Positions 2,490 to 41,918 of a stretch of 64,000 bases of DNA are shown piece by piece; position 1 is the stretch's first letter; every line of letters begins with the position of its first letter. A model generated the notes under the pieces. That model was not told the origin of the DNA. It was given only the letters and a program-made list of their open reading frames with translations, and made no database searches. This stretch comes from Candidatus Parcubacteria bacterium (GTDB taxonomy: Bacteria > Patescibacteriota > Minisyncoccia > Minisyncoccales > JAGLUP01), in NCBI GenBank assembly GCA_023134715.1, contig JAGLUP010000005.1, forward strand, positions 27,442 to 91,441, written 5' to 3'. Made by a program: the position numbers and the translations under genes.

Positions 2490-4043
2490 ATGAGCCCGAG
2501 TGAAACAATAATCAAACAACTAATTAAAAACAGAATTAAAACTCCTGACGGCTTGTCTTTGATTAAAAGAAAAATAGCAAAAAAATATAATACTTCTCTT
2601 GCTTCAAATATAGCTCTACTTAAAGCATATCATAAATTATTAAACAAAAAAAGAATTAAAAAAAGCAAAATTTTGGAAAAACTTCTTCAAAAACATCCTA
2701 TTAGAAGCTTGTCTGGAGTGGTGGTGGTTTCTGTTTTAACAAAGCCATATCCCTGCCCTGGCAAGTGTATTTTTTGCCCCTCTGAAAAAGGAATCCCTAA
2801 GAGCTATTTATCAGGCGAGCCGGCAGTAGAAAGAGCAAAAATGTTAAACTTTGACCCTTATGTTCAAGTTCAAAAACGTTTGGAAATGCTAAAAGACCAA
2901 GGGCATCCCACTGATAAAGTTGAACTTCGAATAATAGGAGCAACTTTTACTTATTACCCTAAACAATACCAATCCTGGTTTATTAAAAAATGTTTTGATG
3001 GTGCTAATCAAAAAAAATCTAAAAATCTTGAACAAGCTCAAAAGAAAAATGAAAAAGCAAAAAATAGAATAGTGGGGATGAGCATAGAAACAAGGCCTGA
3101 CCTTATCACGAAAAAAGAAATTTTAAATCTAAGGAAATTAGGAATAACAATGGTAGAGCTCGGAGCGCAGACTGTATTTGATGACATCTTAAAGAAAAAC
3201 AAAAGAGGTCATTCAGTTAAAGAGACCATAAATGCTACAAAACTTTTAAAAGACGCGGGATTTAAGATTATGTATCAGATGATGCCTAATTTACTTGGCT
3301 CTAATCTAAAAAAGGATTTGGAATGCTTTAAAATAATTTTTAACAATCCTGTTTTCAAACCTGACTGGCTTAAAATTTATCCTTGTATGGTCTGCCGAAG
3401 CTCAAAACTTTATCAAATCTGGAAGCAGGGAAAATTCAAACCTTATTCCGACAAACAATTAATTGAACTTTTAATTAAAATTAAAAAAATCCTGCCTTAT
3501 TGGGTAAGAGTGGGACGGCTCTTTCGCGATATTCCTTCGCAAAAAATTGAAGCTGGTTCTAAAATCTCCAATCTCAGACAAGTAGTCCAAAAACAAATGG
3601 CAGAAAAAAATATTTTTTGCAAATGTATAAGATGCAGAGAGGTAAGAGAAAAATATGACTCAAAAGAAAAAATTTATCTTTTTAGAGAAGATTACAATGC
3701 TTCAAGCGGAAAAGAAATATTTTTAAGCTTTGAGAATAAAAACAGGACAAAACTTTTTGGTTTTCTCCGCCTCCGCCTCCCAATTGAAACAAAGGAGACC
3801 CGACCTCCTTCATCTATTATTAGAGAACTTCATATTTTTGGACGAGCTGTCCCTGTTTCAGAAAAAAAATCAAGCCCCCAGCATAGGGGATTAGGCAAAA
3901 AATTAATAAAACAAGCGGAAAAAATTACCAAAAAAGAATTCAATGTCTCTAAAATCGCTATTATCTCCGGAATCGGAGTCCGCGGATACTACCGCAAACT
4001 CGGCTATCGCCTAAAAAACACTTATATGATAAAAAAACTATAA
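2490..4043 (+). CDS. elp3: Elp3-type radical SAM / GNAT tRNA uridine(34) acetyltransferase
   Basis: A 517-residue protein with the two-domain build of Elp3, the enzyme that forms carboxymethyl-type modifications on wobble U34 of tRNA using SAM and acetyl-CoA. The radical SAM cluster cysteines are C89, C93 and C96 in KPYPCPGKCIFC, followed by SIETRPDLI and VELGAQTVF. The C-terminal GNAT domain shows IRELHIFG, QHRGLGK (acetyl-CoA binding, near residue 464) and ISGIGVRGYYRKLGY. The length equals archaeal Elp3. A palindrome at 3792-3810 adds residues between the domains. Divergent from a PP-loop ATPase. Elp3 is common in archaea and eukaryotes and patchy in bacteria. Confidence 0.93.
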   Translation: MSPSETIIKQLIKNRIKTPDGLSLIKRKIAKKYNTSLASNIALLKAYHKLLNKKRIKKSKILEKLLQKHPIRSLSGVVVVSVLTKPYPCPGKCIFCPSEKGIPKSYLSGEPAVERAKMLNFDPYVQVQKRLEMLKDQGHPTDKVELRIIGATFTYYPKQYQSWFIKKCFDGANQKKSKNLEQAQKKNEKAKNRIVGMSIETRPDLITKKEILNLRKLGITMVELGAQTVFDDILKKNKRGHSVKETINATKLLKDAGFKIMYQMMPNLLGSNLKKDLECFKIIFNNPVFKPDWLKIYPCMVCRSSKLYQIWKQGKFKPYSDKQLIELLIKIKKILPYWVRVGRLFRDIPSQKIEAGSKISNLRQVVQKQMAEKNIFCKCIRCREVREKYDSKEKIYLFREDYNASSGKEIFLSFENKNRTKLFGFLRLRLPIETKETRPPSSIIRELHIFGRAVPVSEKKSSPQHRGLGKKLIKQAEKITKKEFNVSKIAIISGIGVRGYYRKLGYRLKNTYMIKKL

Positions 4044-4047
4044 AAAA

Positions 4048-4070
4048 AGAAGGAGTTTTTTACTCCTTCT
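4048..4070 (-). terminator. Rho-independent terminator of the NUDIX gene
   Basis: A perfect hairpin with 9 bp arms (AGAAGGAGT / ACTCCTTCT) is followed on the minus strand by seven T residues. The upstream arm contains the last codons and stop of the NUDIX gene. It lies just past the elp3 stop and may also block convergent transcription. Confidence 0.8.
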
Positions 4071-4590
4071 GTTGCTCAAACACTTTTTCCAAGGCTCTTA
4101 GTTGATCTGGAAACATCACTATTTCTTCATCTGGATTAAATCCTGTCTCTTTAACTTCTGCTTTTGTCTTAATCTTGCTCATGTCTTCAGCTCCAATAAT
4201 TATTATCTTATCATGCTCTTCTGAAAGCTCGATCAAGTCAACTTGCTTTTTTTGTATCTCTAGCATTCGGCAACAAGCGTCTACCTCTGCGTGTTTTCCA
4301 TCAATGTCGTTATATTCATAACATTCCTCATGTATCTCCTTAGAATTATAAACATTCACTGTTTGAACAAACTTATCTCCTAATTCTTCTCTTGTTTCTC
4401 TTTCAAGACAGCCAAACACATTTTCTCTATCTTCTATTATTCCGTTAGCCGAGCATTGATATACTCCAGGAAATGTCTGCTTGCCATTATTGGCTCTTCG
4501 CGTCAAAACAACCTTCTTTTTTTCTTTCCCGTCTGCTATTGTCACATAATAATAGAATATTCCTGCGCTTCTTTTATTTAATCCTTTCAA
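4060..4590 (-). CDS. NUDIX hydrolase
   Basis: About 176 residues with a complete Nudix box: GIIEDRENVFGCLERETREE, then LGD, matches G-x5-E-x7-R-E-U-x-E-E-x-G. It therefore hydrolyses a nucleoside diphosphate linked to another moiety; the substrate is not evident. I chose the TTG at 4590 because GGGGTG lies 6 nt upstream, as in other genes of this style; a GTG at 4599 in frame is the alternative. The gene is solitary, with its own promoter (TTGACA-16-TAAGAT) and its own terminator hairpin overlapping the stop, unlike the crowded operons around it. The C-terminal third is not recognised. Confidence 0.85.
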   Translation of the reverse strand: MKGLNKRSAGIFYYYVTIADGKEKKKVVLTRRANNGKQTFPGVYQCSANGIIEDRENVFGCLERETREELGDKFVQTVNVYNSKEIHEECYEYNDIDGKHAEVDACCRMLEIQKKQVDLIELSEEHDKIIIIGAEDMSKIKTKAEVKETGFNPDEEIVMFPDQLRALEKVFEQQKE

Positions 4591-4626
4591 TCTTATCACC
4601 CCATTTTTAATTTTAAAAGATATTTT

Positions 4627-4654
4627 ATCTTAACACTTAAAATAAATCTGTCAA
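4627..4654 (-). promoter_or_regulatory. Sigma70-type promoter of the NUDIX gene
   Basis: On the minus strand TTGACA (4649-4654) and TAAGAT (4627-4632) are separated by 16 nt, about 30 nt before the start codon. The -35 is a perfect consensus. Confidence 0.65.
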
Positions 4655-4777
4655 ATTTTTCAATAACAAACTAGGCCGATCGTCCTGATTTGTTGTGGTT
4701 AAAAATTGACAAAAAGAATAGAGTTTTTCTTCCCAGAAAAATTAAAGGAATAGAACCCTTTTTTATTTTTGAAAAAT

Positions 4778-5629: not shown

Positions 5630-5739
5630 TTTTTCTTTTTTTGAAATTTATCTCTTAAAACCAATTTATACTTAATGGTGCTAGGCGTCCTATAGGCCGT
5701 CTTTCCCTTTTTCGCTTTTTTAGACGAATACTTTTTCAT
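5626..5739 (-). CDS. Small basic protein (37 aa)
   Basis: This short frame reads MKKYSSKKAKKGKTAYRTPS and then 17 more residues, mostly basic, ending in KFQKKKK. It overlaps the presenilin-like start through ATGA, which supports real translation and coupling. The composition suggests RNA or ribosome association, but I recognise no family. A short palindrome around AGACGGCCTATAGG lies within it. Confidence is moderate because length alone proves little. Confidence 0.5.
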   Translation of the reverse strand: MKKYSSKKAKKGKTAYRTPSTIKYKLVLRDKFQKKKK

Positions 5740-5846
5740 AAATTTATTCTATTCTATCAAAAAACTGATAATAAAAAAATAGGCGACAGCAGGTCGTTTA
5801 TAGTAATTTTTAAAATTATCCTATTTCATCCACGGCCGTAAACGAT

Positions 5847-5993: not shown

Positions 5994-6010
5994 ATTTTAC
6001 CTTTTACAAA

Positions 6011-6048
6011 TATAACACATATACAACGATCGTTGTATATGTGTTATA
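6011..6048. repeat. Perfect 38 bp palindrome
   Basis: TATAACACATATACAACGA is followed directly by its exact reverse complement, with no spacer. It covers the murE stop codon and ends 18 bp before the start codon of the small gene at 5993. As RNA it would be a 19 bp hairpin with almost no loop. As DNA it could be a dimer-binding operator. There is no clear T-run on the minus strand, so a simple terminator is less likely. Confidence 0.9.
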
Positions 6049-7258
6049 CTTTATTTTTTAATTCTTGCATTTCTTCTTTGACTATTTGGCGGTCGTCCCA
6101 AGGTATTTTTTTGCCACCAGCTACGCACATCCATGGTTCGCATCCCTTGCCGGTAATAATTATTGTATCGCCCGGCCTGGCCAAGCTCAAAGCTTTTTTA
6201 ATCGCCTTTCTTCTATCTAAAATTTTCTGAAAACTCTTTTTAATGCCTTGCTCTATCTCAGATAAAATTTGATTTGGGTTCTCGTCATAAGGGTCTTCAT
6301 TTGTAAGAATAATCTCATCGCAATATTGGTTAGCGATTTTTCCAAACTCTGGCCTCTTCCATTTATCTCGTCCTCCACCAGCAGCACCTAGAACACAAAT
6401 CAATTTTGTATCCTGTATTGTTTTATATACTTTTTCAAGTTCATCGGGAGTGTGGGCATAGTCAACAATAACTGAAAAAGGTTCTTTTATAATGACTTCC
6501 ATTCTTCCGGAAATTGCTTTTATCTTTTCCAGCGCTTTTTTACAAACTTCCAAATCAATTCCTTGAGATAATGCAACGCAAACCGCAGCCAAAGAATTAT
6601 AGACATTAAATTCACCTAAAAGTTTTAAATTAAATTCAACCTCAAAACTTTCTCCTGTTGTTAAATTTTTTATTATAGATTTAGGGCTTATGGAATATCC
6701 ATATTTCTTGTCTGCCTGAAATTTTAAAAAATAATCAGTATTTTTATCATCTAAATTTACAATATGAATTTTTTTAGCAATTTGAAAAAGATTGCCTTTT
6801 GCTTCTTTATATTTTTCAAATGTGCCATGCCTCTCAATATGCTCTGGCGATAAATTAGTAAAAACCGCTGTATTAAAATCAATAAAACAATGACGATTCT
6901 GAAGAATTCCCTCAGATGTTACTTCTATTACCACATATTTACAACCAGCATTCTTTGCTTTTCTTAAAAATTTCTGGATATAACCGCGGCCGGGCATTGT
7001 CATCTTAAAAAGATTTATTTCTTCTTTGTCCTGTATTTTAAATCCTATTGAAGACAAAGAAGCAATAGGAAGTCCTGCCTCTCTAAAAATTTGGTGGAGC
7101 ATTTCAACAACCGTTGATTTGCCGGCAGTACCCGTTACCCCAATAATAATTAATTTTTGGGAAGGAAATCTATAAAAAACAGCGCTTAAAAAAGCTAAGA
7201 GCAAATGATAATAGCTAATTAAAAAACCAGGAATAAATTTTCTTAAAACACTAATCAT
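6044..7258 (-). CDS. murE: MurE-like Mur ligase (UDP-MurNAc-tripeptide synthetase family)
   Basis: A 404-residue Mur ligase that adds the third amino acid of the peptidoglycan stem peptide. The ATP-binding loop is GVTGTAGKSTV (residues 40-50). Central-domain signatures include TMPGRGYIQKF, VIEVTSEGILQNRH and NLSPEHIERHG; the C-terminal domain has SGRMEVI, VDYAHTPDELEKVY and GAAGGGRDKWKRPEFG. E. coli MurE is near 495 residues, and the shortfall is at the N-terminal UDP-binding domain, reduced here to a hydrophobic stretch of about 35 residues. The amino-acid motif, DNPR in diaminopimelate enzymes, reads EDPY here, so the added residue may differ. Last main gene of the nusA-to-murE run. Confidence 0.88.
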   Translation of the reverse strand: MISVLRKFIPGFLISYYHLLLAFLSAVFYRFPSQKLIIIGVTGTAGKSTVVEMLHQIFREAGLPIASLSSIGFKIQDKEEINLFKMTMPGRGYIQKFLRKAKNAGCKYVVIEVTSEGILQNRHCFIDFNTAVFTNLSPEHIERHGTFEKYKEAKGNLFQIAKKIHIVNLDDKNTDYFLKFQADKKYGYSISPKSIIKNLTTGESFEVEFNLKLLGEFNVYNSLAAVCVALSQGIDLEVCKKALEKIKAISGRMEVIIKEPFSVIVDYAHTPDELEKVYKTIQDTKLICVLGAAGGGRDKWKRPEFGKIANQYCDEIILTNEDPYDENPNQILSEIEQGIKKSFQKILDRRKAIKKALSLARPGDTIIITGKGCEPWMCVAGGKKIPWDDRQIVKEEMQELKNKV

Positions 7259-7267
7259 TGAAAAAAT

Positions 7268-7831: not shown

Positions 7832-7839
7832 ATATTTTT

Positions 7840-7845: not shown

Positions 7846-7905
7846 ACATAGCAAAAAACGAAAGAAACTGAATTTTTCAAAGCGAGAATTCTGGATTTTC
7901 TGAGA

Positions 7906-12417: not shown

Positions 12418-13419
12418 TTATAATTCCGATGCACAGTAAAGTTTTGCAAAAATATTTTTTGAAGTATTATGAAGTGAATAATTCTGTTTTTTTAAAAAAA
12501 CCATGTAATCTTTTTTTCCCCGACGAGTCGGGGAAGCTTTTTTTCTCTTATCTTTTGTTTTTATCTCAATACAACCATTAATGATGTAAATTGCCGTATC
12601 TTTTTTCACAGTAAATTTTATATTTTGGCTTGGCTTAATAATTAAAATGAATATTTTATATTTATATCCAAGAGAATTAATAACTTTATATATTAATGTT
12701 CCCCATCTTTCTGCGCGGCTTATCGGCTTAATTATTTTTATATATCCCTTATGTTTTTTAGGTAATTTATCAACACCAATTCTGTCTTGAAATCCTAATG
12801 GAAGCTTAACTGTTGCGTTTAACGCGCTCTTTTTTTGCCTATTGACAAGTGTATGCACAGTCCCTTTCTTTACCAAAATTATTTTTCCCGGCTCAACACT
12901 AAAAGATTTTATCTTATTATTCACTATCGCTTCAACATCAATTTTGCCTGACAATACCATGGTGTATTCATCCATGTCAGAATGTAAATGATAATTTTGG
13001 ATGAGATTTGGCGTTGTTACAGCCATTGAAACGCATAATCCATTATCATAGTAAATATTTTGATGCAAGCCAAAATATTTCCTTACTTCATATATGCCAT
13101 TTTTACTTTTTTCTTTGAAGATACACAATTGATTTGGTTTTAATATGCCAAAAGAGCCAGAAATTTGAAGCAAACAATTCTCCCTCTTAAGATGATTTGC
13201 TCTTTTTATTATTTGAGTTATTTTATTTCTATCTTTAACAGAAAAATTATGTTTTACTGACACCTGTTTTAATATTTGTTTGCCTTTATCTCTTATACGC
13301 AATAATGCTTTTACTCTTTGGTCTCTTTCTCTAAATTTCACTGGCGGTATAAGCGACTGCTGCATTTTTGCAATTTCGTTTAATTTTTTTGAGCTGTTAT
13401 TAATATATGTGTTAATCAT
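12418..13419 (-). CDS. Bicupin-domain protein of unknown function
   Basis: About 333 residues from the ATG at 13419; a GTG 33 nt upstream is an in-frame alternative. Two cupin barrels are seen. The first contains NYHLHSDMDEYTMVLSGKID and GKIILVKKGTVHTLVN, with the H-x-H...E...H pattern expected of a metal-binding cupin. The second (IFILIIKPSQNIKF onward) lacks obvious metal ligands. A 16 bp palindrome at 12518-12533 encodes part of the second barrel (KASPTRRGKKD). The substrate is unknown; sugar-phosphate isomerases and dioxygenases are typical cupins. It has basic, non-cupin N-terminal 100 residues. Confidence 0.6.
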   Translation of the reverse strand: MINTYINNSSKKLNEIAKMQQSLIPPVKFRERDQRVKALLRIRDKGKQILKQVSVKHNFSVKDRNKITQIIKRANHLKRENCLLQISGSFGILKPNQLCIFKEKSKNGIYEVRKYFGLHQNIYYDNGLCVSMAVTTPNLIQNYHLHSDMDEYTMVLSGKIDVEAIVNNKIKSFSVEPGKIILVKKGTVHTLVNRQKKSALNATVKLPLGFQDRIGVDKLPKKHKGYIKIIKPISRAERWGTLIYKVINSLGYKYKIFILIIKPSQNIKFTVKKDTAIYIINGCIEIKTKDKRKKASPTRRGKKDYMVFLKKQNYSLHNTSKNIFAKLYCASEL

Positions 13420-16331: not shown

Positions 16332-18604
16332 TGATAGCAAATAATAGCAATATGATAACATTATCCACATCAATTGATAAAATTCCCAAAATTGGACCGG
16401 TTTATGTGAAAAAACTTCATAAAATGGGGATTAAAACAGTCCAAGATATTTTATATCATTTTCCTCATCGGTATGATGATTTTTCTAATCTTGTCCCTAT
16501 TTCCAAAGTTAAGCTCAACCAAACTTGTTGTATTCAAGGAAAAATTTTAGAAATAAAAAACAGTAGAACATGGAAAAAAAGAATGGCAATAACCCAAGCA
16601 ATAGTTGAAGATAAAACCGGCGCCATTAGAATAGTTTGGTTTAATCAGCCATATTTAACAAAAAGCTTAAAAATAGGCGACAATGTATGCTTGGCCGGAA
16701 AAGTTGCTTTAGATAAACAAGGAGCATATTTATCAAACCCTGCCTATGAAAAACTATCACCCAAGGAGCTTAGCTCCAGGAGTTTAGCTCCTTACAATTT
16801 GACACATGTTGGCAGATTAGTACCGGTTTATCCTGAAACTGAAAAGCTCTCTTCCCGCTGGCTCCGTTATATTTTAAAACCCCTGCTCTTAGAATTTAGA
16901 AATAAAATTGCCGACCCGTTGCCAGAAAAAATTATAAAACAGGAAAATCTTTTGCCTCTAAATAATGCTCTTTGGCAGATTCATTTTCCTGATTCAATGG
17001 CTTTAGCGAAAAAAGCTCAAAACCGTTTTGCTTTTGAAGAGCTTTTTTTTATTGAACTTGCTGTTTTAAAAGAACGCCTGAAATTAAACCAAAAAGCCGC
17101 AGCTGCCGCTCCTATGAATATAAAAGTTTTGAAAAAATTCACTAAATCTCTGCCGTTCAAACTAACTGATGACCAAAAAAAATCCGCATGGCAGATTTTA
17201 AAAGATTTGGGAAAATCAATGCCAATGAACCGGCTTTTAGAAGGAGATGTTGGGTCGGGAAAAACAGTAGTAGCGGTAATGGCCGCTTTAAATACAGTTA
17301 AAGCTGGCTTGCAGGCAACTATTATGGCCCCAACTGAAATCCTGACAAAACAGCATTTCAAAGAAATCTCTCACTTGCTTTATCCTTTTAAAATCTCTGT
17401 CGCGCTTCTTACTGGCAAAGAAGACAAGCTCGCTTCAAAAAAACTAAAAAACGAAACAATTGAAATCTCCCGTAAAAAATTGCTGGAAAATGTAAAAAAC
17501 GGAAAGATTGATATTTTAATAGGAACCCACGCTTTAATTTCTCCTTCCAGTTCCAGGGTCTCCAGTTTCTTTTATAAAGACCTTGAAGAATTTGGATTTA
17601 AACCCAAAAAAATAAAAAAGAATAGAGTGAAATTTAAAAATTTAGGATTAGTAATAATTGACGAACAGCATCGCTTTGGCATAGAACAACGCGCGCGGCT
17701 TTGTGAAAGCTATAGCGAAGATACAAAATTTAGCGATTATGAAAACAGCAAAGGAGTTTTAATTCCTCATTTATTATCTATGACTGCCACGCCTATTCCT
17801 CGCACACTAGCTTTAACAATTTACGGTGACTTAGATTTATCTTTAATTAATGAATTGCCGAAAGGAAGAAAAAAAATCATTACTGAGATAGTGGCTCCTG
17901 CGGACAGGCAAAAAACATATAACTTTATTAAGAAAGAAGTTAAAAAAGGAAGAAGGGTTTTTGTTGTCTGTCCAAGAATAGAAAAAAACGAAAAAAAAGA
18001 TGGTTTGCCATGGACTGATGTTAAAGCGGTAAAAGAAGAATATGAAAAATTATCAAAAAAAATCTTTCCAAATTTAAAAGTAGGAATGCTTCACGGAAAA
18101 CTTAAATCAAAAGAAAAAGAAAAAATAATGAGGGATTTTAAGATTGGCAAAATTGAAATTTTGGTCTCTACTTCGGTAATTGAAGTAGGGATTGATATTC
18201 CAGAAGCAACCGTAATGATGATTGAGGGCGCGGATAGGTTTGGATTAGCTCAGCTTCACCAATTCAGAGGACGAGTCGGCAGAAGCAAACATCAGTCATA
18301 TTGCTTTCTTTTTACTGACTCTCCGTCTAAAAAAACAAGGCAGCGGTTAAAAGCTCTTGTAAAATGTGAAAGCGGTTTTGATTTATCAGAACAAGATTTA
18401 AAAATCCGGGGTCCAGGGGAAATCTACGGAGTAAGACAATGGGGGATTCCTGATTTAGCTATGGACGCATTAAAAAATCTGCCTTTGGTTGAAAAAACCC
18501 GTGAATCTGTTAAACAATTATTAGAGCAGGACCCGGAATTAAAAAAATTCCCGCTTCTGCGAGAACGCCTCAAAGGATTCCGCGCAAAAATCCACCTTGA
18601 GTGA
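16331..18604 (+). CDS. recG: ATP-dependent DNA helicase RecG
   Basis: 757 residues from a GTG start; an ATG at 16352 (residue 8) is equally likely and begins MITLSTSIDKIPKIGPVYVK. The wedge/OB region (60-160) is followed by the helicase core: LEGDVGSGKTVVAV (Walker A), LVIIDEQHRFGIEQR (DEQH box), HLLSMTATPIPRTLALT, HGKLKSKEKE, and the TRG region RGRVGRSKHQSY. RecG remodels stalled forks and Holliday junctions. It is longer than E. coli RecG (693) because of short insertions: one palindrome-derived near residue 145 (16762-16795), and two lysine/serine-rich segments flanking the DEQH box. Ends 4 nt before the convergent AEC gene. Confidence 0.95.
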   Translation: MIANNSNMITLSTSIDKIPKIGPVYVKKLHKMGIKTVQDILYHFPHRYDDFSNLVPISKVKLNQTCCIQGKILEIKNSRTWKKRMAITQAIVEDKTGAIRIVWFNQPYLTKSLKIGDNVCLAGKVALDKQGAYLSNPAYEKLSPKELSSRSLAPYNLTHVGRLVPVYPETEKLSSRWLRYILKPLLLEFRNKIADPLPEKIIKQENLLPLNNALWQIHFPDSMALAKKAQNRFAFEELFFIELAVLKERLKLNQKAAAAAPMNIKVLKKFTKSLPFKLTDDQKKSAWQILKDLGKSMPMNRLLEGDVGSGKTVVAVMAALNTVKAGLQATIMAPTEILTKQHFKEISHLLYPFKISVALLTGKEDKLASKKLKNETIEISRKKLLENVKNGKIDILIGTHALISPSSSRVSSFFYKDLEEFGFKPKKIKKNRVKFKNLGLVIIDEQHRFGIEQRARLCESYSEDTKFSDYENSKGVLIPHLLSMTATPIPRTLALTIYGDLDLSLINELPKGRKKIITEIVAPADRQKTYNFIKKEVKKGRRVFVVCPRIEKNEKKDGLPWTDVKAVKEEYEKLSKKIFPNLKVGMLHGKLKSKEKEKIMRDFKIGKIEILVSTSVIEVGIDIPEATVMMIEGADRFGLAQLHQFRGRVGRSKHQSYCFLFTDSPSKKTRQRLKALVKCESGFDLSEQDLKIRGPGEIYGVRQWGIPDLAMDALKNLPLVEKTRESVKQLLEQDPELKKFPLLRERLKGFRAKIHLE

Positions 18605-25552: not shown

Positions 25553-28025
25553 TTCTCAAAAATCAAATAAAGAAATCGGCTATATTAAACCGCGGGAAAT
25601 AGTTGAAGAAATGAAAGAATCATATATTGATTACGCAATGTCAGTTATTATCGCGCGCGCATTGCCTGATGTTCGCGACGGCTTAAAGCCGGTCCACCGC
25701 AGAATTTTATACGCAATGCTCGAAGACGGATTAAGAGCAAACGCAAAATTTAGAAAATCAGCAACTGTTGTCGGGTCTGTATTAGGACGTTATCATCCTC
25801 ACGGCGATATTGCTGTTTATGACGCAATGGCAAGAATGGCCCAGGATTTTTCGTTAAGATACCCTCTAATCAACGGGCAGGGAAACTGGGGCAGTATTGA
25901 CGGAGATAATCAGGCCGCTATGCGTTATACCGAAGCAAAACTCTCAAAAATTGGCGAAGAAACGCTAAAAGATATTGAAAAAAATACTGTTAATTTCAGA
26001 GACAATTATGACGGCACAAGAAAAGAACCGTGCGTTCTGCCATCGCCGCTTCCTCAACTTCTTTTAAACGGCTCTCTGGGAATCGCTGTTGGAATGGCGA
26101 CAAATATTCCTCCTCATAATCTCTCTGAAGTGGTAGAAGCGGTAATACACCTAATTGACAATCCAAAAACAACAACTGAAGATCTTTTCCAATTCATTAA
26201 AGGACCTGATTTTCCCTTAGGAGGAATAATTTTTGACAAAAAAGAAATAATATCCGCTTATTCTCAAGGCAAGGGACCTATTTTAACCAGAGGTAAAGCA
26301 GAAATTATAGAAAATAAAACTCATCAACAGCAAATTATTATTACTGAGATTCCCTATCAAACCCAAAAATCAAACTTAGTCACTCAAATAGCAAAATTAG
26401 TAGAAACGAAAAAACTGGAAGGAATTAAAGATGTCCGAGACGAGTCAGATAGAGATGGAATGAGAATTGTTATTGAGCTTAAAACCGGAGCTTATCCTCA
26501 AAAAATCTTAAATCGTTTATATAAATTCAGCGACCTTCAAAAAACTTTTCACCTTAATATGCTTGCCATAGTAGACGGAATCCAGCCAAAAATTCTTTCC
26601 CTTGCTGAAATTCTTAATTATTATATTTTACACAGAAAAGAAGTAATAGTAAGAAGAACTAAATATGAATTAGCAAAAGCAGAAGAAAGAGCGCATATTT
26701 TGCAAGGATTAGTTATGGCGCTTGGAAAAATTGACGCGATTATCAAAACAATCAAGCAGTCAAAAAACAGAGAAGACGCTCAGAAGAATTTAATCGAAAA
26801 ATTTAAATTTACCACTATCCAGGCAAACGCTATTCTGGAAATCAAGCTTCACTCCTTGGCTAAATTAGAACGTGAAAAACTGGAACAAGAACTTGAAGAG
26901 CTTTTGACTAAAATTAAAAAACTCAAGGCGATTCTGAAAGACCCTAAAAAAATAAGAAAACTAATGAAAGATGAACTGCAGGAGGTTAAAGAAAGATACG
27001 GAGACCAGAGAAGAACTAAAGTGGTTGCTCAAAAAATTGGAGAAATCGCTGAAGAGGATTTAATTCCTCAAGAAGAAACAATTATTGTTTTAACGCAGGG
27101 CGGTTATATTAAAAGAATAAATCCATCTGTTTATAAAATTCAGAAAAGAGGAGGAAAGGGAATTTTAGGAATGAAAACGCTTCAGGAAGATATTATTGAA
27201 CATTTTATTTCAGCCAATACTCATGACTCGCTTCTTTTCTTTACTGACTCAGGAAAAGTTTTCCGAACCTTTGCCTATGAAATTCCTGAAGGCAGTAGAG
27301 TGGCAAGAGGAAGAGGGCTTTTAAACTTTTTAGAAATTTCTCAAGAAGAAAAAGTTCTTTCCTTGATTACTTTAAAAAAAGATGATAAAGAGTTATCAAC
27401 AAGATATTTAGTAATGCTTACAGAAAATGGTATAATAAAAAAGACATCTTTGAAAGAATTTGAGAATGTGCGAAGAAACGGGCTTATTGCCATAAAACTA
27501 AATAAAGGAGACGCTCTGAAATCTGTAAGGAAAAGCAGTGGAGAAGATGAGATAATTTTAGCCACAAAAAAAGGACAATCTATCAGATTTAAAGAAAAAG
27601 AAATTCGCGCTATGGGACGTCCAACTGCAGGCGTAAAAGCAATCCGATTAAAAAAAGAAGATAAAGTTGTGGGAATGGACACCATAGAAAGCCCCCGCCA
27701 AGAGCGGGGCAAGCAAAACTTAGATAAGAATTATTTATTGGTGGTTAGTGAAAACGGATATGGAAAGAAAACAGATATTAAAGAATATCGAAAACAAGGC
27801 AGAGGAGGTTCGGGAATAAAAACAGCTAACATAACTAAGAAAACCGGCGAAATTGTCTTTTCTAAAATCATTACGGAAGAAGAAGATTTAATCGTAATCT
27901 CCCAACAAGGACAAGTAATAAAAACAAATATTGCGTCTATCCCGATTTTAAGCCGCGCCACTCAAGGCGTTAGAATAATGAAGCTTAATGAAAACGATAA
28001 AGTCGCATCCGCAACTTGTATTTAA
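25542..28025 (+). CDS. gyrA: DNA gyrase subunit A
   Basis: 827 residues with the catalytic tyrosine Y129 in [12 protein letters not shown], the winged-helix region [19 protein letters not shown] and C-terminal beta-pinwheel blades (for example [28 protein letters not shown]). GyrA cuts and rejoins DNA to introduce negative supercoils with GyrB, which is not in the window. The quinolone-contact position equivalent to E. coli Ser83 is Ile90, while Asp94 matches Asp87. A palindrome at 27691-27710 adds residues inside a C-terminal blade. The canonical GyrA box form QRRGGKG reads QKRGGKG here, still favouring gyrase over ParC. Confidence 0.94.
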
Positions 28026-29763: not shown

Positions 29764-29805
29764 GGAGACCCGACCTCCTTTGCCAGTGAAGGAGGTCGGG
29801 TCTCC
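29764..29805. repeat. Palindromic GACCCGACC element, 15 bp arms
   Basis: GGAGACCCGACCTCC is repeated in inverse after a 12 nt loop. The core GACCCGACC recurs at 29919, 29955, 40434, 40856 and inside elp3 (3792-3810). There is no T-run immediately after it. Confidence 0.8.
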
Positions 29806-29912: not shown

Positions 29913-29933
29913 AGTCTAGACCCGACCTAGACT
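29913..29933 (+). terminator. Terminator after tRNA-Leu
   Basis: AGTCTAG / CTAGACT arms enclose the loop ACCCGAC, followed by ACTTTTTTAC. It sits 12 nt past the tRNA. Confidence 0.75.
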
Positions 29934-29952
29934 ACTTTTTTACATATTTAAA

Positions 29953-29986
29953 AAGACCCGACCTTTGGATTTAAGGTCGGGTCTTT
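29953..29986 (-). terminator. Terminator-like hairpin at the hsp20 end
   Basis: AAGACCCGACCTT is inverted after a short loop, with AT-rich flanks on both sides (TTTAAT on the plus strand, TTTTTAAAT on the minus). It is placed between tRNA-Leu and the convergent hsp20 and may act in both directions. Confidence 0.65.
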
Positions 29987-29989: not shown

Positions 29990-30439
29990 TTACTGCTTAA
30001 CTGATATTTTTCTCTCTTTTTCTCGATGAATTATCGGCAATTTAATAGTTAGGATGCCTTTTTTCATAGAAGCGCTGATTTCTTCAGGATTTACTTCTTC
30101 AGGTAAAACTATTTTTCTGGAAAATGCTCCCCACCAGCATTCTTGATAAAGATATTTCGGCCCGCCCGCGTCGCTCCCGCCGGGTTTTTTTCTCTCGCCC
30201 CTTATGGTTATTATATCGTTCTCAATTGAAATATCTAAATCCTCTGGCTTAACGCCGGCAACAGGGGACTGAATAACAATTTCTGAATCTGTTTGGAAAA
30301 CATCAACAACCAGCTGCCCTTCTTTTTTAAACCATTTTTCCTCGCTTTCCTTCTCTTTCTCTTCTTCCAAATCTAAATCCAATTCTTTTATAGAAATCTC
30401 TTTTCCCTTATTTTTTTTTGATTTTTTTAAAAACCCCAT
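29990..30439 (-). CDS. Hsp20/alpha-crystallin family small heat shock protein
   Basis: 149 residues: a charged N-terminal third (KKSKKNKGKEISIKELDL and an acidic run), then an alpha-crystallin domain (about 50-140) with VDVFQTDSEIVIQSPVAGVK, ITIRGERKKPGG, IVLPEEVNPEEISASMKKGI and LTIKLP. ATP-independent holdase that protects unfolding proteins. The loop KPGGSDAGGPKYLYQ carries residues from a GC-rich palindrome (30160-30186), an insertion that the fold tolerates. The C-terminal I-x-I/V anchoring motif is represented by KISVKQ. Confidence 0.9.
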   Translation of the reverse strand: MGFLKKSKKNKGKEISIKELDLDLEEEKEKESEEKWFKKEGQLVVDVFQTDSEIVIQSPVAGVKPEDLDISIENDIITIRGERKKPGGSDAGGPKYLYQECWWGAFSRKIVLPEEVNPEEISASMKKGILTIKLPIIHREKERKISVKQ

Positions 30440-31183: not shown

Positions 31184-32313
31184 ACCTTTAAGTTAGCATT
31201 TACTTTAATATTTTTCCAATTTTTTGTTTTTTGGTTTTTATGATAATACGCTGTTATGGCTATCATCGCCGCATTGTCAGTGCAGAAAATTTTTGGGGGA
31301 ACCAAAAATTTTAGTTTGTAGTTTATAGTTTGTAGTTTATGGTTAAATTGCCTTCTTAACTCTTTGTTTGCTGTAACGCCACCGCCAAGAATTATAGATT
31401 TTGCCTTATATTGTTTAGCGGCTTTAATAGTTTTAAAAATTAAAACATCAATTATCGCCTGTTGAATCTCCCGGCACATCTCTTGAATATATTTTTTTGA
31501 CCTTGCTGTTTTTTCAGGCCGTTTTTTAAAATCATATAAGACCGCTGTTTTCAACCCAGAAAAACTAAAATCATAATCCTTGCTATGAAGCATCGGTCTT
31601 GGCAACTTAGTTTGTAGTTTATAGTTTATAGTTTGTAGTTTCGCGGCTTCAGCGGAAATGGCAGGACCACCAGGATAATCTAACCCTAAAATTCTCGCTG
31701 TCTTGTCAAAACACTCCCCGGCCGCATCATCCCTTGTTTCTCCTAAAATTTTATACTTTCCAATTCCCTTCATTAAAATCAACTGCGTATGCCCGCCGCT
31801 TACCACTAAACATATCGCAGGGAATAAGTATTTTGTATTTTGCCCGCCCGCATCGCTACGCGAAGCGTTGCGGGCGGGGATTTTGATATCTGGTGGCAAC
31901 CAATTAGCAAGTATGTGCGCTTCTATATGGTTAACTGGAATAATCGGCAAATCCCATAAACAAGAAAGCTCTTTAGCAAAATTCACTCCCACCCATAAAC
32001 ACGGCTCTAATCCTGGACCTATCGTCACCGCAACCGCGTCAATATTTGGTTTTCTGAACTTTGATAATTTGGCTTTTCCTAATGCTTTTTTCAAAACTGG
32101 CTCTAAATTTTTCTGGTGTTCTCTTATCGCCATAGTCGGGTAAATTCCGCCATATTTCTTATGGATTTCAGCTTGAGAAGAAACAATATTGCTTAAAATT
32201 TTTACTTTTTGCTTATTAATCTCTAATACGGCAACGCAGGTATCATCGCAGGATGTTTCAATAGCTAAAATTTTCATTGCTCTTATTTTATCATTTGACT
32301 TGATTTTTTTCAA
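31180..32313 (-). CDS. tsaD: tRNA N6-adenosine threonylcarbamoyltransferase TsaD
   Basis: 377 residues; the likely start is the ATG of MKILAIETSCDDTCVAVL about 12 codons in (32277). Signatures: ISAETSCD-like start, HKKYGGIYPTMAIREH, TIGPGLEPCLWVGVNFAKEL, VNHIEAHILANWL (metal histidines), LVVSGGHTQL, and LDYPGGPAIS. It transfers threonylcarbamoyl to A37 of ANN-decoding tRNAs. Three repeat-derived insertions are in frame: a GC palindrome (31842-31879) and two copies of a LQTINYKL-encoding repeat (31312-31343, 31608-31640). Despite them the frame is open and all active-site motifs remain. Confidence 0.94.
   Translation of the reverse strand: MKKIKSNDKIRAMKILAIETSCDDTCVAVLEINKQKVKILSNIVSSQAEIHKKYGGIYPTMAIREHQKNLEPVLKKALGKAKLSKFRKPNIDAVAVTIGPGLEPCLWVGVNFAKELSCLWDLPIIPVNHIEAHILANWLPPDIKIPARNASRSDAGGQNTKYLFPAICLVVSGGHTQLILMKGIGKYKILGETRDDAAGECFDKTARILGLDYPGGPAISAEAAKLQTINYKLQTKLPRPMLHSKDYDFSFSGLKTAVLYDFKKRPEKTARSKKYIQEMCREIQQAIIDVLIFKTIKAAKQYKAKSIILGGGVTANKELRRQFNHKLQTINYKLKFLVPPKIFCTDNAAMIAITAYYHKNQKTKNWKNIKVNANLKV
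31312..31343 (-). repeat. TTTGTAGTTTATAG repeat inside tsaD, copy 1
   Basis: A near-tandem TAGTTTGTAGTTTATAG unit encodes KLQTINYKL in tsaD. A second copy lies at 31608-31640 in the same gene. Neither block belongs to the TsaD family consensus as I know it. Confidence 0.7.
31608..31640 (-). repeat. TTTGTAGTTTATAG repeat inside tsaD, copy 2
   Basis: Second in-frame copy of the tsaD repeat, encoding KLQTINYKLQ between the PGGPAIS segment and the KLPRPMLHS segment. Confidence 0.7.
31842..31879 (-). repeat. GC-rich palindrome inside tsaD
   Basis: TGCCCGCCCGC ... GCGGGCGGGGA arms enclose a CGCTACGCGAAGCG inner palindrome. The coded residues are PARNASRSDAGGQ. Closely related palindromes occur in hsp20 (30160-30186) and at 39288-39317. 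Confidence 0.75.
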
Positions 32314-32495: not shown

Positions 32496-34058
32496 TTAAG
32501 TGACCCAATATTTTTTCTTGGTCATTTCGTCTTTTTTTATTTCAATTTTCTGACGCTCTTCTATGGCTTTTTTAGACAAGGAGCTAAGCTCCTTGTCAGA
32601 TAATTTGCTTAATTTTTTAATTTCTTTCTGTAAAAATGTTTTTTTGTTCTTTTTTGGGTCAGCAAGAACATAACCCAATAGGACATCTAAAATTTGTCCT
32701 ATCTTTGGTCCCGGTCTAATGTTTAAAATTTTTATTATATCATTGCCTGAAACCTTGAGTTTTTTAACTGAAATCACATCTTTGGATAATTTTTCAATAA
32801 GATATTTTAAATGTCTTAACTTATATGGCTCGGCTTTGGGACATCCAGAGCCAATTCTATCGCACATTCTAAGCTGTAATAACTCCTCTATGTTTTCAGG
32901 ACCCACGCTCCTGACTAATTTTCTTACTGACGCCTCGCCGACTTCGTCAACATTATAGTAAAAAAGATGATAACGAACCAATTTAACAATCTTTTCAATG
33001 TCTTTTTTAGAAAATTTCAAACGATTTAAAGCTTGAATTGTCATTCTCGCTCCCACAACTTCATGATTATAAAAAGTAGCGTTTTCTCCCTTGCCTCTCT
33101 TTGTTCTTGGCTTGCCAATATCGTGAAGCAAAGCGGCTATACGGACATATTTATTAAAATCCCGCTTAACAGCGTATTTTAAAGATAAAAGATTATGCTC
33201 ATAAACCCCGTAAATATGATGTTTGTTTTGGGAAATATCCAATCCTTCTAATAATTCTGGAATAATATACTTTAAAAGCCCTAATTTTCGCAAAAGCTCT
33301 GTCCCTTCATACGCCCTGTCTGACATAATAATTTTTAAAAACTCATCTCTTATTCTTTCTTTTGAAATCGCCTGAAGCCAAAGGCTGTTTTTTTTAATCG
33401 CTTCAGCTGTTTTTGGTTCAATCGCAAACCCCAATGTAGCGGCAAATCTTACCGCCCTTAACATGCGCAAGGCGTCTTCATCAAATCTTTTTTCCGGCTC
33501 GCCTACAGCCCGAATAATTTTATTTTCCAAATCCTTCTGCCCCTCAAATAAATCAATAATTCTGACCTTTAATTTTTTTCCAGGATAAACTCCTCCTGCC
33601 GATTGCCCATAAATTTGGCCTAAAGGGGTTGGCTTAATCGAAAGTATTGTTTGAACTTCTATTGCCATTGCGTTTACCGTGAAATCCCTTCTTTTTAAAT
33701 CATCTTTCAATGTCTTAGCAAATTTTATCTCGTCTGGATGGCGCTTATCTGTATATTTTGCCTCGGTCCGATAAGTTGTAATCTCAATTTCTTTTAATTT
33801 AGAATTTTTGCTTCCTGTTTGAACAGTTACTGTAAGAAATTTGTTCTCGTAAAAATTCTTTGGGAATACTTTTTGAATTTCTTCTGGCTTGGCGTTTGTA
33901 GTAATATCCCAATCCTCTGGCTCAACGCCTCTCCCTCCTTCGCTCTCGCTTCGGCGGGCAAGTAAAAAATCACGCACACAGCCGCCGACAATATATGCCT
34001 CAAATCCTTGTTTTTCCAATTCTTTAATAATAGATTTTACTTCTTTTGGAATTTCCAT
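32496..34058 (-). CDS. cca: CCA tRNA nucleotidyltransferase with HD domain
   Basis: 520 residues. The polymerase-beta-type head has EAYIVGGCVRDFLLARR and DWDITTNAKPEEIQ (metal-binding D-x-D), then KRRDFTVNAMAIE and GEPEKRFDEDALRMLRAVRF, all class II CCA-adding enzyme signatures. A C-terminal HD region has RIAALLHDIGKPRTK and YNHEVVGARM. It adds or repairs the 3' CCA of tRNAs, needed because most tRNAs here do not encode it. In-frame palindromes lie near residue 35 (RRSESEGGRG) and at 32575-32597. Confidence 0.94.
   Translation of the reverse strand: MEIPKEVKSIIKELEKQGFEAYIVGGCVRDFLLARRSESEGGRGVEPEDWDITTNAKPEEIQKVFPKNFYENKFLTVTVQTGSKNSKLKEIEITTYRTEAKYTDKRHPDEIKFAKTLKDDLKRRDFTVNAMAIEVQTILSIKPTPLGQIYGQSAGGVYPGKKLKVRIIDLFEGQKDLENKIIRAVGEPEKRFDEDALRMLRAVRFAATLGFAIEPKTAEAIKKNSLWLQAISKERIRDEFLKIIMSDRAYEGTELLRKLGLLKYIIPELLEGLDISQNKHHIYGVYEHNLLSLKYAVKRDFNKYVRIAALLHDIGKPRTKRGKGENATFYNHEVVGARMTIQALNRLKFSKKDIEKIVKLVRYHLFYYNVDEVGEASVRKLVRSVGPENIEELLQLRMCDRIGSGCPKAEPYKLRHLKYLIEKLSKDVISVKKLKVSGNDIIKILNIRPGPKIGQILDVLLGYVLADPKKNKKTFLQKEIKKLSKLSDKELSSLSKKAIEERQKIEIKKDEMTKKKYWVT
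32575..32597 (-). repeat. Perfect palindrome inside cca
   Basis: GACAAGGAGCT, one central A, then AGCTCCTTGTC: an 11 bp perfect inverted repeat in the C-terminal codons of cca. Related AGGAGCT/AGCTCC palindromes occur in recG (16762-16795). Confidence 0.8.
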
Positions 34059-36405: not shown

Positions 36406-36411
36406 AATTTT

Positions 36412-38511: not shown

Positions 38512-40424
38512 ACAAAGAAAAATTAGAATTCTTAAAAAGAGCGGAGATTAGAACAATGGAAAAAGACATTGCCCGATTTCGGGAAGAAGAAGCGCAAAAA
38601 GCTCGAGAAAAATTAACTACTAAAGAACCCGTTGAAATTCCTGCGAAGACTGAAGAAGACAAGCATGTAGCTATCCCGCGAAGTGAAACTATAGCGAGCG
38701 AAGAAGAAAAAATCAAAGAAGAGAAACAAATAGCTGAAGAAATTGAAAAAAAATGGCTTAAGGAAAAAGCAGAATTAGAACAAAAAAAAGCTGAAGCAGA
38801 AGAAAGAAAAAAAATATTGGAAAATCAGAAAGAACCAATAGAAACAAAAAAAAATGATTTATTAAAACAACTAGAACAACTCAAGCAAACCCTTGAGCCA
38901 ATTTTAATAAAAGAAAAAGAAATTGAACAAAGGAGAAAAGAAATTGAAGAAAAAGAGCGACTCACTGTTTCTTTTGAACAAAAACGGAAAATTGAAAAAC
39001 AAAGATGGCAGGTTGAAGATGAAATAAAGGAAACAGAAAAACAAAGATGGCAGGTTGAAGATGAAATTGAAAAAATAAAGCAGGAAATAAAAAAATATAT
39101 TTTAGAAGAACAAAAAATCTTAAAAGAAAAGGTTCTGATAAAAGAAAAAAAAGATACATTAAAAAAACAGCTTCAAGAAATTGAAGAAAAAGTAGAGCCT
39201 CTAAAATTAAAACTGAACGAAATTTTAGAAAAAGAAAAAGAGTTAAAACAAGAAATTGAGAATGTGGACAAACCCGCCGAAAGTCCTCCTGCCCGCAATG
39301 CAAGCGATGCAGGCGGGGCAAGCATTCAAGCGAGCAGTCCTGAGCAAATTCCAGAACCTCAGCCAGATGCTGATCCGCCTTTGGCGGAAACGCCTAAGCC
39401 TGCTACTCAGAGTCCAGAGGACGATGAAGTAGTCCCGCCTACTGGCGGGGAGCCAGAACCTCAGATTAAAGAACCCCCAAAATACGAACAACCACCTGAA
39501 ATAAAACAAATAAGAGCAACGCTAGAAGAAGTTCAAAAAAGAGAAGAAGAAGAAAGAGGACGATTCTTAAGAAAAATTGAAGAAACAGATATTGAAGACG
39601 AGCCAGCCGAAAGTCCAAGTATCCAGGAAAGCGAGCCCGCAAAAGTGGTTTTCAGACATCTCCCACAAAAACCCCGCCTTCTTGAAAAAATCTGGATTAG
39701 ATTTATAATCTTAATTGTTATTTTCTTAATTTTGGCAAGTATTTTCACTTTTTGGTACTGGTATTTTGAAATAAAATCCCCTCAAGATTCTAAATCGTCA
39801 ACTCCAGAAGAAATAATGGAATCAAGAGTAGTCATCCCTCCAGAATCTTTAATTTCAGTTGAGACAATAAAAATTTTTGAAATAAATTCCGACGAACAAA
39901 CAGTTGACGTTTTTGAACGAGCAATAAAAGAAAACCTGTCAAAAGGATTCATTAGAATTATAATTAAAAATCAAACAGAAAATAAAATTTTAGGATTAAA
40001 AGAATTTTTTGAAAATTTCCAGATTAAAGCGCCTGAAAACTTTGAGCAAAAATTAAATAATGATTTTACCTTGTTTATTTATTCTTCAGAAAATAATAAC
40101 TTCGGCTTTACGGCTGAAATAACACCCGCCGAAAGTCCTGCGGACAATCAGGCGGACAGGGAGAATTTAAAAGAAATAATGCTTTCTTGGGAGGAAACCA
40201 TTAAAAAAGACCTTGAACCCCTTTTGTTTGTTTTAGCTGAAAACAAGGATTTAACTCCTTCTCATGCCTTTAAACAAGCATCCCATAAAGAAGCAGATTT
40301 TCGTTATATTAGTTTTTTAGAAGAAGATTTAGGAATTTGTTATAGTATTTTTGACAATTATTTTATTCTTACTTTTTCGGGCGATACAATAATAAAAACT
40401 ATAGATAATATAAAAAATAAATAA
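38508..40424 (+). CDS. Coiled-coil membrane protein with extracytoplasmic C-terminal domain, unknown
   Basis: 638 residues translated from the pnp stop overlap (ATGA). Residues 1-250 form a long charged coiled coil, including a repeated KQRWQVEDEI unit; 255-335 is Pro/Glu-rich low complexity; one membrane helix lies near 397-420 (FIILIVIFLILASIFTFWYW); the last 200 residues form a folded domain outside. Several GC-rich palindromes are translated in the linker (39288-39317, 39374-39391, 39433-39451) and near 40138-40160, producing the recurring PAESP motif. The family is not recognised. The topology suggests a link between the cytoplasm and envelope. Confidence 0.75.
   Translation: MNKEKLEFLKRAEIRTMEKDIARFREEEAQKAREKLTTKEPVEIPAKTEEDKHVAIPRSETIASEEEKIKEEKQIAEEIEKKWLKEKAELEQKKAEAEERKKILENQKEPIETKKNDLLKQLEQLKQTLEPILIKEKEIEQRRKEIEEKERLTVSFEQKRKIEKQRWQVEDEIKETEKQRWQVEDEIEKIKQEIKKYILEEQKILKEKVLIKEKKDTLKKQLQEIEEKVEPLKLKLNEILEKEKELKQEIENVDKPAESPPARNASDAGGASIQASSPEQIPEPQPDADPPLAETPKPATQSPEDDEVVPPTGGEPEPQIKEPPKYEQPPEIKQIRATLEEVQKREEEERGRFLRKIEETDIEDEPAESPSIQESEPAKVVFRHLPQKPRLLEKIWIRFIILIVIFLILASIFTFWYWYFEIKSPQDSKSSTPEEIMESRVVIPPESLISVETIKIFEINSDEQTVDVFERAIKENLSKGFIRIIIKNQTENKILGLKEFFENFQIKAPENFEQKLNNDFTLFIYSSENNNFGFTAEITPAESPADNQADRENLKEIMLSWEETIKKDLEPLLFVLAENKDLTPSHAFKQASHKEADFRYISFLEEDLGICYSIFDNYFILTFSGDTIIKTIDNIKNK
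39288..39317 (+). repeat. GC-rich palindrome in the coiled-coil gene
   Basis: CCTGCCCGC ... GCAGGCGGG arms around AATGCAAGCGAT. Encoded residues PARNASDAGG match those of the tsaD and hsp20 insertions. Confidence 0.75.
40138..40160 (+). repeat. Palindrome in the coiled-coil gene
   Basis: CCTGCGGAC, then AATCAGGCGGACAGG: inverted arms CCTG/CAGG and CCGC-type repeats. It encodes part of PAESPADNQADRE. Confidence 0.55.
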
Positions 40425-40431
40425 ATAAATA

Positions 40432-40468
40432 AAGACCCGACCTTAAAGAATCCCAAAGGTCGGGTCTT
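40432..40468. repeat. GACCCGACC palindrome, left copy beside TraR-like gene
   Basis: AAGACCCGACCTT, an 11 nt loop and the inverse arm. It is identical, loop included, to 40854-40890. The two copies bracket the TraR/DksA gene. It may terminate the pnp transcript. Confidence 0.85.
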
Positions 40469-40470
40469 AA

Positions 40471-40848
40471 ATGTCTTTTATGATAAACGAAGAGCTACAA
40501 TTAAAACTAAAACAAAAATTGGAGAAAGAAAAAGAGCTTTTAGAAAAAGAACTCCAGGGTTTTGCTAAAAAAAGCGAAACTCTAAAAGGGGATTGGAAAA
40601 CTCGTTTTCCTAAATTTAATGGCGGAAAAATAGAAGAAGAAGCAGATGAAATAGAGGAATATGAAACCCTGCTGCCGATTGAATATAATCTTGAATTACG
40701 ACTCAAAGACATTAACTCGGCTCTAAATAAAATTAAAAAAAGTGGGCCAGCTTGTAAATACGGAATTTGCGAGAAATGCGGAAAATCAATATCAAAAGAA
40801 CGTTTAAATGCTTGTCCTGAAGCAAAAACCTGCGCTAAATGTAAATAA
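40471..40848 (+). CDS. TraR/DksA-type zinc-finger protein
   Basis: 125 residues; an ATG at 40480 is an alternative start. The coiled N-terminal part (ELQLKLKQKLEKEKELLEKE) is followed by a four-cysteine zinc finger CKYGICEKCGKSI ... CPEAKTCAKC, as in DksA/TraR, which insert into the RNA polymerase secondary channel. The D-x-x-D-A tip of DksA is not obvious. The gene is bracketed by identical 37 bp palindromes. The start codon lies 2 nt after the left one, leaving no room for a ribosome binding site. Confidence 0.85.
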   Translation: MSFMINEELQLKLKQKLEKEKELLEKELQGFAKKSETLKGDWKTRFPKFNGGKIEEEADEIEEYETLLPIEYNLELRLKDINSALNKIKKSGPACKYGICEKCGKSISKERLNACPEAKTCAKCK

Positions 40849-40853
40849 ATAAA

Positions 40854-40890
40854 AAGACCCGACCTTAAAGAATCCCAAAGGTCGGGTCTT
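40854..40890. repeat. GACCCGACC palindrome, right copy beside TraR-like gene
   Basis: Identical copy of 40432-40468, including the loop AAAGAATCCCA. It lies between the TraR/DksA gene and the convergent M23 peptidase gene and can act as a terminator for both. Confidence 0.85.
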
Positions 40891-40898
40891 AAATAACC

Positions 40899-41918
40899 CT
40901 ATTGAGCAAACGGATTGCGAGCCCCCCGAACCTCAAAATGAAGATGGCATCCCAAAGATCCAGAAGGAATAGTATAACCGCTATGCCCCATATAGCCAAT
41001 AATTTCTCCTTGAGAAACTTCTTGCCCAGACGCAGTAATTATCTTTGAGAGATGACCATAAAAAGTAACCACTTCATTCGGATGAATAATTCTTATATAA
41101 CTGCCAGCTATTCTATGATAACCTGTTTTTTGAACTACACCGCTCGCAGCCGCTAAAATTGGTTCGCCGCAGCTCACTCCTTCATGACTAAAATCAATTG
41201 CGTTATAAAGGTGCAGTCCTTGAGTAATTCGGCAGGGAGGAAGAATGGGACAAATAAAATAACTTGAAGCAATCGGCGTGGTATATGCCGCGCTATAAAC
41301 AATTTTTGGTTTTACGCCATTAGGAATAACTAAAACATCGCCGATAAAAATCTCTGCTCCAGACAAATTGTTAGCAGTAATAACCTCGCTGACGTCTCCC
41401 TTATAGTCTTGGACAACCTGACTTAGGGTGTCGCCTGATTTCACTAAATGCATTATTCCGGAAACCGGCAAAATAAGCAATTTTTGCCCGGGCTTAATTA
41501 CAGAATTTTTACTCAAATTATTTGCCCAAAGCAATGTCTCAAGAGTAATTTCAAACTTAGAAGTAATGGTAGAAAGAGTGTCTCCCTGCTCAATAATATA
41601 TTCAACAATTTCTTCTCTCTCTAAAAAAGAATCATCCATGCCCAAACCGGCCAAAACCTTAGAAGAAACAAGTGTATAGGGAGCAGCCCCGAGCAAACTG
41701 TTGCTCTGGGCTAAACATAAATCAGAAAACCCTTGAGCCGCTGGAAAAGATGATTGCTGAACTCCAATCGCCCAATAAGAACTGCTTACTTCTTTGCCAA
41801 CAAAAACAGGGCTTTCCTGCCCGCCTCGCCAAACGGCGGGTTTGTCAGAAACCCCGCAAATTAAAACAATTAATCCTATTAAAAAAACAAGTTTTTTAAT
41901 TCTACTCATATACCCCAT
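40899..41918 (-). CDS. Secreted M23 peptidase with two LysM domains
   Basis: 339 residues. A signal peptide (LVFLIGLIVLICGVS) is followed by two LysM repeats at about 110-200 (EYIIEQGDTLSTITSKFEI and MHLVKSGDTLSQVVQDY) and a C-terminal LytM/M23 domain with GLHLYNAIDFSHEG and CHLHFEVRG, the H-x(n)-D and H-x-H zinc ligands. It probably binds and cuts peptidoglycan. Residues SDKPAVWRGGQES come from a palindrome at 41819-41840. The gene is divergent from the VirB6-like gene by about 115 bp, and a cell-wall hydrolase is useful near a secretion system. Confidence 0.9.
   Translation of the reverse strand: MGYMSRIKKLVFLIGLIVLICGVSDKPAVWRGGQESPVFVGKEVSSSYWAIGVQQSSFPAAQGFSDLCLAQSNSLLGAAPYTLVSSKVLAGLGMDDSFLEREEIVEYIIEQGDTLSTITSKFEITLETLLWANNLSKNSVIKPGQKLLILPVSGIMHLVKSGDTLSQVVQDYKGDVSEVITANNLSGAEIFIGDVLVIPNGVKPKIVYSAAYTTPIASSYFICPILPPCRITQGLHLYNAIDFSHEGVSCGEPILAAASGVVQKTGYHRIAGSYIRIIHPNEVVTFYGHLSKIITASGQEVSQGEIIGYMGHSGYTIPSGSLGCHLHFEVRGARNPFAQ

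Follow-up and report, generated by a model that had tools for sequence, protein, structure and literature searches.

DNA uptake sequences, which number hundreds or more copies per genome, are length-neutral in genes whose reading frame is compatible, and their inverted pairs act as terminators. Repetitive extragenic palindromes (REPs) lying within genes, among them DNA-repair and tRNA-synthetase genes, have been described, as have REPtrons and transposases flanked by terminal inverted repeats, called TIRYTs (Di Nocera 2013, PMC3733652); in known REPtrons, TnpAREP cleaves single-strand REP with a GTAG guide (PMC8266576). Rickettsia palindromic elements, as far as the citing article covers them (PMC3733652), are in-frame palindromic insertions in many conserved genes. 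Here, we analyse the palindromes of a 64,000-nucleotide stretch of a Candidatus Parcubacteria genome (contig JAGLUP010000005.1; hereafter, the window), many of which lie within conserved genes, together with the rest of the genome and its relatives. We conclude with moderate confidence that this genome carries several REP-like palindrome families: family A, most likely the substrate of its own Y1 transposase; family B, a hairpin with a conserved loop; and family C, which behaves as in-frame insertions.

Family A and the Y1 transposase

The host assembly comprises 762 kb in 12 contigs, of which contig 8 contains the window at 27442-91441, and the relatives used for comparison are metagenome-assembled genomes of the same order (Nealsonbacteria, Staskawiczbacteria and others); the closest named TsaD sequences were those of Nealsonbacteria, Gribaldobacteria and Staskawiczbacteria, which identifies the host as a Patescibacterium. 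Genome-wide counts were obtained by pattern searches, the remaining statistics come from selected stretches, open reading frames were called mechanically, and loci fetched by pattern form a non-random sample.

All palindromes that a preliminary description had listed in genes of the window were found at their positions, reading in frame (Table 1), and the existence of sequence families beyond chance was confirmed. Family A, GGAGCTWAGCTCC, is present at 33 sites genome-wide within one mismatch, versus none for the reversed pattern, which is itself palindromic and of equal composition. Family B, AGACCCGACCT, has 22 sites, and family C, CCGCC N2-20 GGCGG, has 39, versus nine in the reversed control. 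There are at least three kinds of palindrome, with three unrelated cores, and a single insertion family covering all sites is ruled out by these cores and by orthologues. Cores shared by coding palindromes and intergenic hairpins, also claimed earlier, do recur, but they belong to different systems: the AGGAGCT family is linked to the Y1 transposase, while the GACCCGACC family is a hairpin with an invariant loop.

The 33 family A sites correspond to ca. 22 places. In the window they lie in recG and the 3' part of cca; outside it, prfB, pgk and a small number of further genes contain copies, and all remaining places are intergenic. Many intergenic copies of family A directly follow stop codons, and in some a T run comes next.

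Family A most likely serves as substrate for the Y1 enzyme, a HuH transposase resembling RAYTs (REP-associated tyrosine transposases) or TIRYTs. Its gene, the sole Y1_Tnp gene in the genome (PF01797, above cut-off), encodes 221 amino acids from the first methionine, contains the HxH motif NPNHFHL in its translation, and is bordered on both sides by family A units (L283). As in REPtrons, the gene of an IS200-related HuH transposase lies between palindromes that recur across the genome; as in TIRYTs, a RAYT-like gene has flanking terminal inverted repeats unrelated to GTAG REPs. Among 119 genomes of the order, the closest Y1 homologues were found in G061 and G075 (60% and 51% identity, E 1e-85 and 5e-68, respectively; the next were at ca. 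45% or less), and these two genomes are also the richest in the family A palindrome. The 17-mer AAGGAGCTWAGCTCCTT, which has seven sites in the genome under study, is patchy over the order (26 of 119 genomes), with the highest counts in G061 (31) and G075 (23). Since unselected loci of relatives contain no excess of AAGGAGCT (one palindrome, 43 half-sites), the low-copy genomes of this survey may represent background.

The palindromes of 72 Y1 loci of the order differ in sequence from enzyme to enzyme and match within a locus. Most loci have flanking palindromes, and many have a third one within the coding region, where it occupies a hypervariable loop immediately preceding the HuH motif. The internal palindrome was tested with GC-containing 11- to 13-mers, shared 10-mers being noisy. 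At 36 of the 72 loci, the region at codons 40-85 shared a GC-containing 12-mer with its own flanks, versus a mean of 0.5 (maximum 4) for permuted flanks and 1-5 elsewhere in the gene. Palindromes of a genome's own transposase were ca. 16-fold denser in other sampled loci of the same genome (eight loci in 341 kb) than in other genomes (21 in 14.8 Mb). Three of the eight loci are the recG genes of G008, G025 and G036, with the palindrome at one loop site in the helicase domain; the double palindrome copy in G025 recG adds residues. In the wedge loop of recG, relatives G008, G015 and G025 bear palindromes of their own; a RAYT palindrome matching the G008 insert there, GGTTGAAGCC, was sought and not found. 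These data point, short of proof, to mobilisation of the palindromes by the transposases. During replication, the palindromes would fold into single-strand hairpins on which the enzyme acts, and new copies would reach gene ends as well as those coding sequences whose frame and protein can accommodate them; copies are found at both kinds of location.

Several observations weigh against this reading. The Y1 protein scores only 20.7 bits against NCBIfam REP_Tyr_transpos (NF047646), whose cut-off is 80, and no GTAG tag 5' of the hairpin was seen by eye beside family A copies in the displayed contexts; for these two reasons the enzyme is not a canonical RAYT. Genomes G083 and G037 carry 12 and seven family A copies without a close Y1 homologue. 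Length-neutral copies in coding sequence misfit simple insertion, and a general excess of singleton palindromes, both taken up below, may mean that a sequence-unspecific palindrome-making process is also at work.

Insertions and length-neutral copies in genes

The palindromes had been described as inserted in their host genes. To examine this, alignments were made of orthologues drawn from as many as 40 genomes of the order, the bicupin, coiled-coil and M23 genes lying outside this test. As judged from the alignments, residues have been added in rnhA, elsewhere in the genome (14 amino acids, missing from four relatives), in the 5' part of cca (10 amino acids), and probably in tsaD; the length-variable loop of recG makes insertion possible there. 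The cca 5' hairpin is imperfect, with one stem mismatch and a 14-nt loop, and relatives have a different insert (L068) or a similar one (G083) at this site. Lengths give no sign of insertion in elp3, gyrA or the 3' part of cca, and hsp20 is only ca. two residues longer. Orthologues carrying the same segment, an outcome named beforehand as refuting the claim, were found for the cca 3' palindrome, which lies within a conserved KELxxL stretch and is found with identical core and site in the orthologues of G037 and G083, and in a one-mismatch version in G036. On the aligned sequences, then, the term insertion is valid for family C and some family A copies, and fails for elp3, the 3' part of cca and several family A copies elsewhere.

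Family C behaves in these comparisons as in-frame insertions would: 29 of 36 examined copies (ca. 80%) are inside genes. Its subfamilies include CCGCCGAAAGTCCTNCGGACAWTCAGGCGG, which some genes read as PAESP..QAG and others in different frames, and another read as FAKATAG or SAKAMAD. A few coding copies, for instance in L20 and in an aminopeptidase, could be native. The proposed likeness to Rickettsia palindromic elements holds for this family, which is mostly in genes and adds residues (rnhA, cca, probably tsaD), and fails as a single explanation of all the palindromes.

A second kind of coding repeat in the order consists of low-complexity repeats such as ATCCAAAATCCAAAATCC, read in frame within tsaD and recG loops (QNPKSKIQNPKSKI) in L057, L191, L151 and other relatives. 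In L114, L116 and genomes G003, G036, G024 and G027, the open frames for GyrA have 1217-1349 amino acids and are broken, probably by inteins, at a point after about residue 80-137 of the window protein.

No added length was found at the family A site of tpiA, murC, alaS, dprA, miaA, prfB, metG and fpg, by alignment to solved structures, or of pgk, by comparison with relatives. Coding copies account for 21 of 68 17-mers sampled in other genomes; some of the hosts are short, uncertain open reading frames, and a few frames are used (KELSSL, KGAKLL, RSLAPL). The native sequence at length-neutral sites is often already similar, being a half-site or near-palindrome, as in murC (L316) and tpiA (L317). 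Such copies seem to have arisen by replacing or completing a near-match and not by insertion: while some coding copies are insertions, others appear to have replaced a similar native stretch with length unchanged, probably by short templated conversion or palindrome completion and not by transposition.

Palindrome completion could also occur without any mobile element, by template switching at replication, which makes imperfect inverted repeats perfect; length-neutral copies would result at sites where one arm is already present in codons such as AAG GAG CTN. We regard this as a possible but rather unlikely account of the whole. It agrees with the half-sites and near-palindromes in relatives of family A hosts, with the unchanged length of aligned hosts, and with a general excess of palindromes in the order. 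In same-order genomes, 382 palindromes, mostly singletons, were found versus 57 expected overall, and perfect palindromes in coding DNA numbered 121 versus 19-27 after shuffling (ca. five-fold), while loci from other phyla had no excess (24 versus 15-26). Coding palindromes exceed chance in the genome under study as well: in a 219-kb sample, coding DNA contained ca. 40 hairpins versus 11-14 in codon-shuffled controls, and perfect palindromes with arms of at least eight numbered 18 versus 4-8. However, template switching leaves unexplained the 33 copies of one 13-mer with none of its reversed counterpart, the match between transposase clade and palindrome, and the insertions that add length.

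The few compatible frames and unchanged length of coding copies would also be expected if family A were a DNA site under selection (an uptake or binding motif, for example), acquired by point mutation where the protein allows it, in the manner of uptake sequences, with intergenic copies doubling as a terminator stem, as their position after stop codons and occasional T runs would fit. This explanation is improbable: seven copies of the 17-mer and 33 of the 13-mer are very few for an uptake motif, and the motif is patchy over the order and tracks a transposase.

Returning to family A as a transposase substrate, we hold one extension to be doubtful: that each Y1 enzyme and a palindrome private to it diversify together, the palindrome being kept at three places (the two flanks and the hypervariable loop before the HuH motif), and that codons resembling this palindrome in other genes can be overwritten by it while the protein keeps its length. 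Such a conversion-like mode of spread has not been described for REPs.

Family B and features of the window

Hairpins of family B have an invariant loop, ACCCGAC, and stems that change by compensation (covariation 0.513 versus 0.168 in shuffled sets; 0/500). They are mostly intergenic, often in inverted pairs, and many are near gene 3' ends; coding copies are found in elp3 and two other genes. Family B probably exerts its effect in RNA or single-strand form, termination being one example. The location of many family B pairs and some family A copies directly 3' of genes, and the gyrA and hsp20 cases, which are ordinary variable loops, would agree with a wholly immobile set of intrinsic terminators, chance GC-rich stretches and variable loops. 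Such an explanation is highly improbable, being contradicted by the rnhA and cca insertions; the palindromes cannot all be terminators or products of chance, because there are coding copies, repeated identical cores and insertions proven by orthologues.

The features of the window are collected in Table 1. The coiled-coil gene had no Pfam match, and no sequence family was found for the bicupin palindrome. In a similar linker region of the same oxidoreductase-like gene (L010/L011, L410), this genome has two family B hairpins and G037 a family A palindrome. Two further repeats are intergenic. An AT-rich, nearly perfect palindromic repeat of 38-40 bp, TATAACACATATACAACGATCGTTGTATATGTGTTATA, distinct from families A-C, is found at window positions 6008-6051, at L027 14924-14963 and at L032 6914-6951. 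Another, with core AGGTCGATCGGCC and TTTGTTA arms, is found at L027 17787-17828 and 18996-19037; no other k-mers are as over-represented in the genome sample as those of its core.

Table 1. Palindromic features of the window, by family.
Feature	Location	Positions	Strand	Remarks
Family A double palindrome AAGGAGCTTAGCTCCAGGAGTTTAGCTCCTT	recG	16762..16795	+	encodes PKELSSRSLAPY; length-variable loop; AAGGAGCTTAGCTCCAGGAGTTTAGCTCCTT unit also flanks transposase gene in L283
Family A palindrome GACAAGGAGCTAAGCTCCTTGTC	cca, 3' part	32575..32597	-	encodes DKELSSLS; no added length
Family B hairpin AAGGAG-ACCCGAC-CTCCTT	elp3	3792..3810	+	no added length relative to solved Elp3 structures
Family B inverted pair	intergenic	29764..29805	.	
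Family B single hairpin core TAGTCTAG-ACCCGAC-CTAGACTA	intergenic	29918..29928	+	
Family B inverted pair	intergenic, adjoins hsp20	29952..29986	.	
Family B inverted pair AAGACCCGACCTT...AAGGTCGGGTCTT	directly 3' of coiled-coil gene	40432..40468	.	
Family B inverted pair	amid convergent genes	40854..40890	.	
Family C-like element CCCGCC GAAGCGAGAGCGAA GGAGGG	cca, 5' part	33930..33962	-	LARRSESEGG; 10-residue insertion; most relatives without it
Family C-like hairpin IPARNASRSDAGG	tsaD	31842..31879	-	probable extra residues; variable loop; hairpin above all gene-matched segments
Family C-like palindrome	hsp20	30160..30186	-	PGGSDAGG; ca. 2 residues over most relatives; loop of variable length
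Family C-like element	coiled-coil gene	39288..39317	+	PARNASDAGG
Family C hairpin CCGCCTTTGGCGG	coiled-coil gene	39375..39387	+	
Family C hairpin CCGCCTACTGGCGG	coiled-coil gene	39435..39448	+	
Family C element CCGCCGAAAGTCCTGCGGACAATCAGGCGG	coiled-coil gene	40125..40160	+	PAESPADNQAD; ca. 8 more near-identical copies genome-wide
Family C hairpin	M23 peptidase gene, near N-terminal hydrophobic segment	41819..41840	-	PAVWRGG
GC-rich palindrome	gyrA	27691..27710	+	SPRQERG; loop length varies in relatives; not a length outlier
Palindrome TTCCCCGACGAGTCGGGGAA	bicupin gene	12516..12535	-	no family found

Comparison with described systems

The preliminary description knew of no account of such elements for this group, and we found none for Patescibacteria in the open-access literature searched; within that literature, the Patescibacterial version, the internal transposase palindrome and the length-neutral copies appear new. 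Streamlined Patescibacteria are thought to be short of room for selfish DNA, yet palindromes are present in replication, translation and repair genes throughout the order. The transposase-palindrome pairs provide many natural cases in which an enzyme has changed along with the hairpin that it recognises, from which recognition rules may be read, and the length-neutral copies pose a testable question, that of how a repeat enters a gene without extra bases.

Length-neutral copies in compatible frames are a property shared with DNA uptake sequences; unlike the latter, the palindromes studied here are far fewer (33 and 22 sites), patchy, and tied to a transposase. Family C is similar to Rickettsia palindromic elements, as far as these are covered by the article cited above, in being in frame and adding residues to conserved proteins, a likeness of insertion mode; the Patescibacterial elements differ from what is given there in being short (ca. 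30-45 bp) and in forming diverse subfamilies, and the palindromes in elp3, the 3' part of cca and pgk add no residues. The closest resemblance in organisation is to the REP/RAYT and TIR/TIRYT systems, in which palindromes of 20-40 bp, single or in inverted pairs, likewise flank a single Y1 HuH gene and are dispersed mostly between genes. The elements described here differ from REP/RAYT systems in that no GTAG was seen and the NCBIfam RAYT match is weak, in that half of the sampled transposase genes contain a third, matching internal palindrome, and in that many of the intragenic copies are length-neutral.

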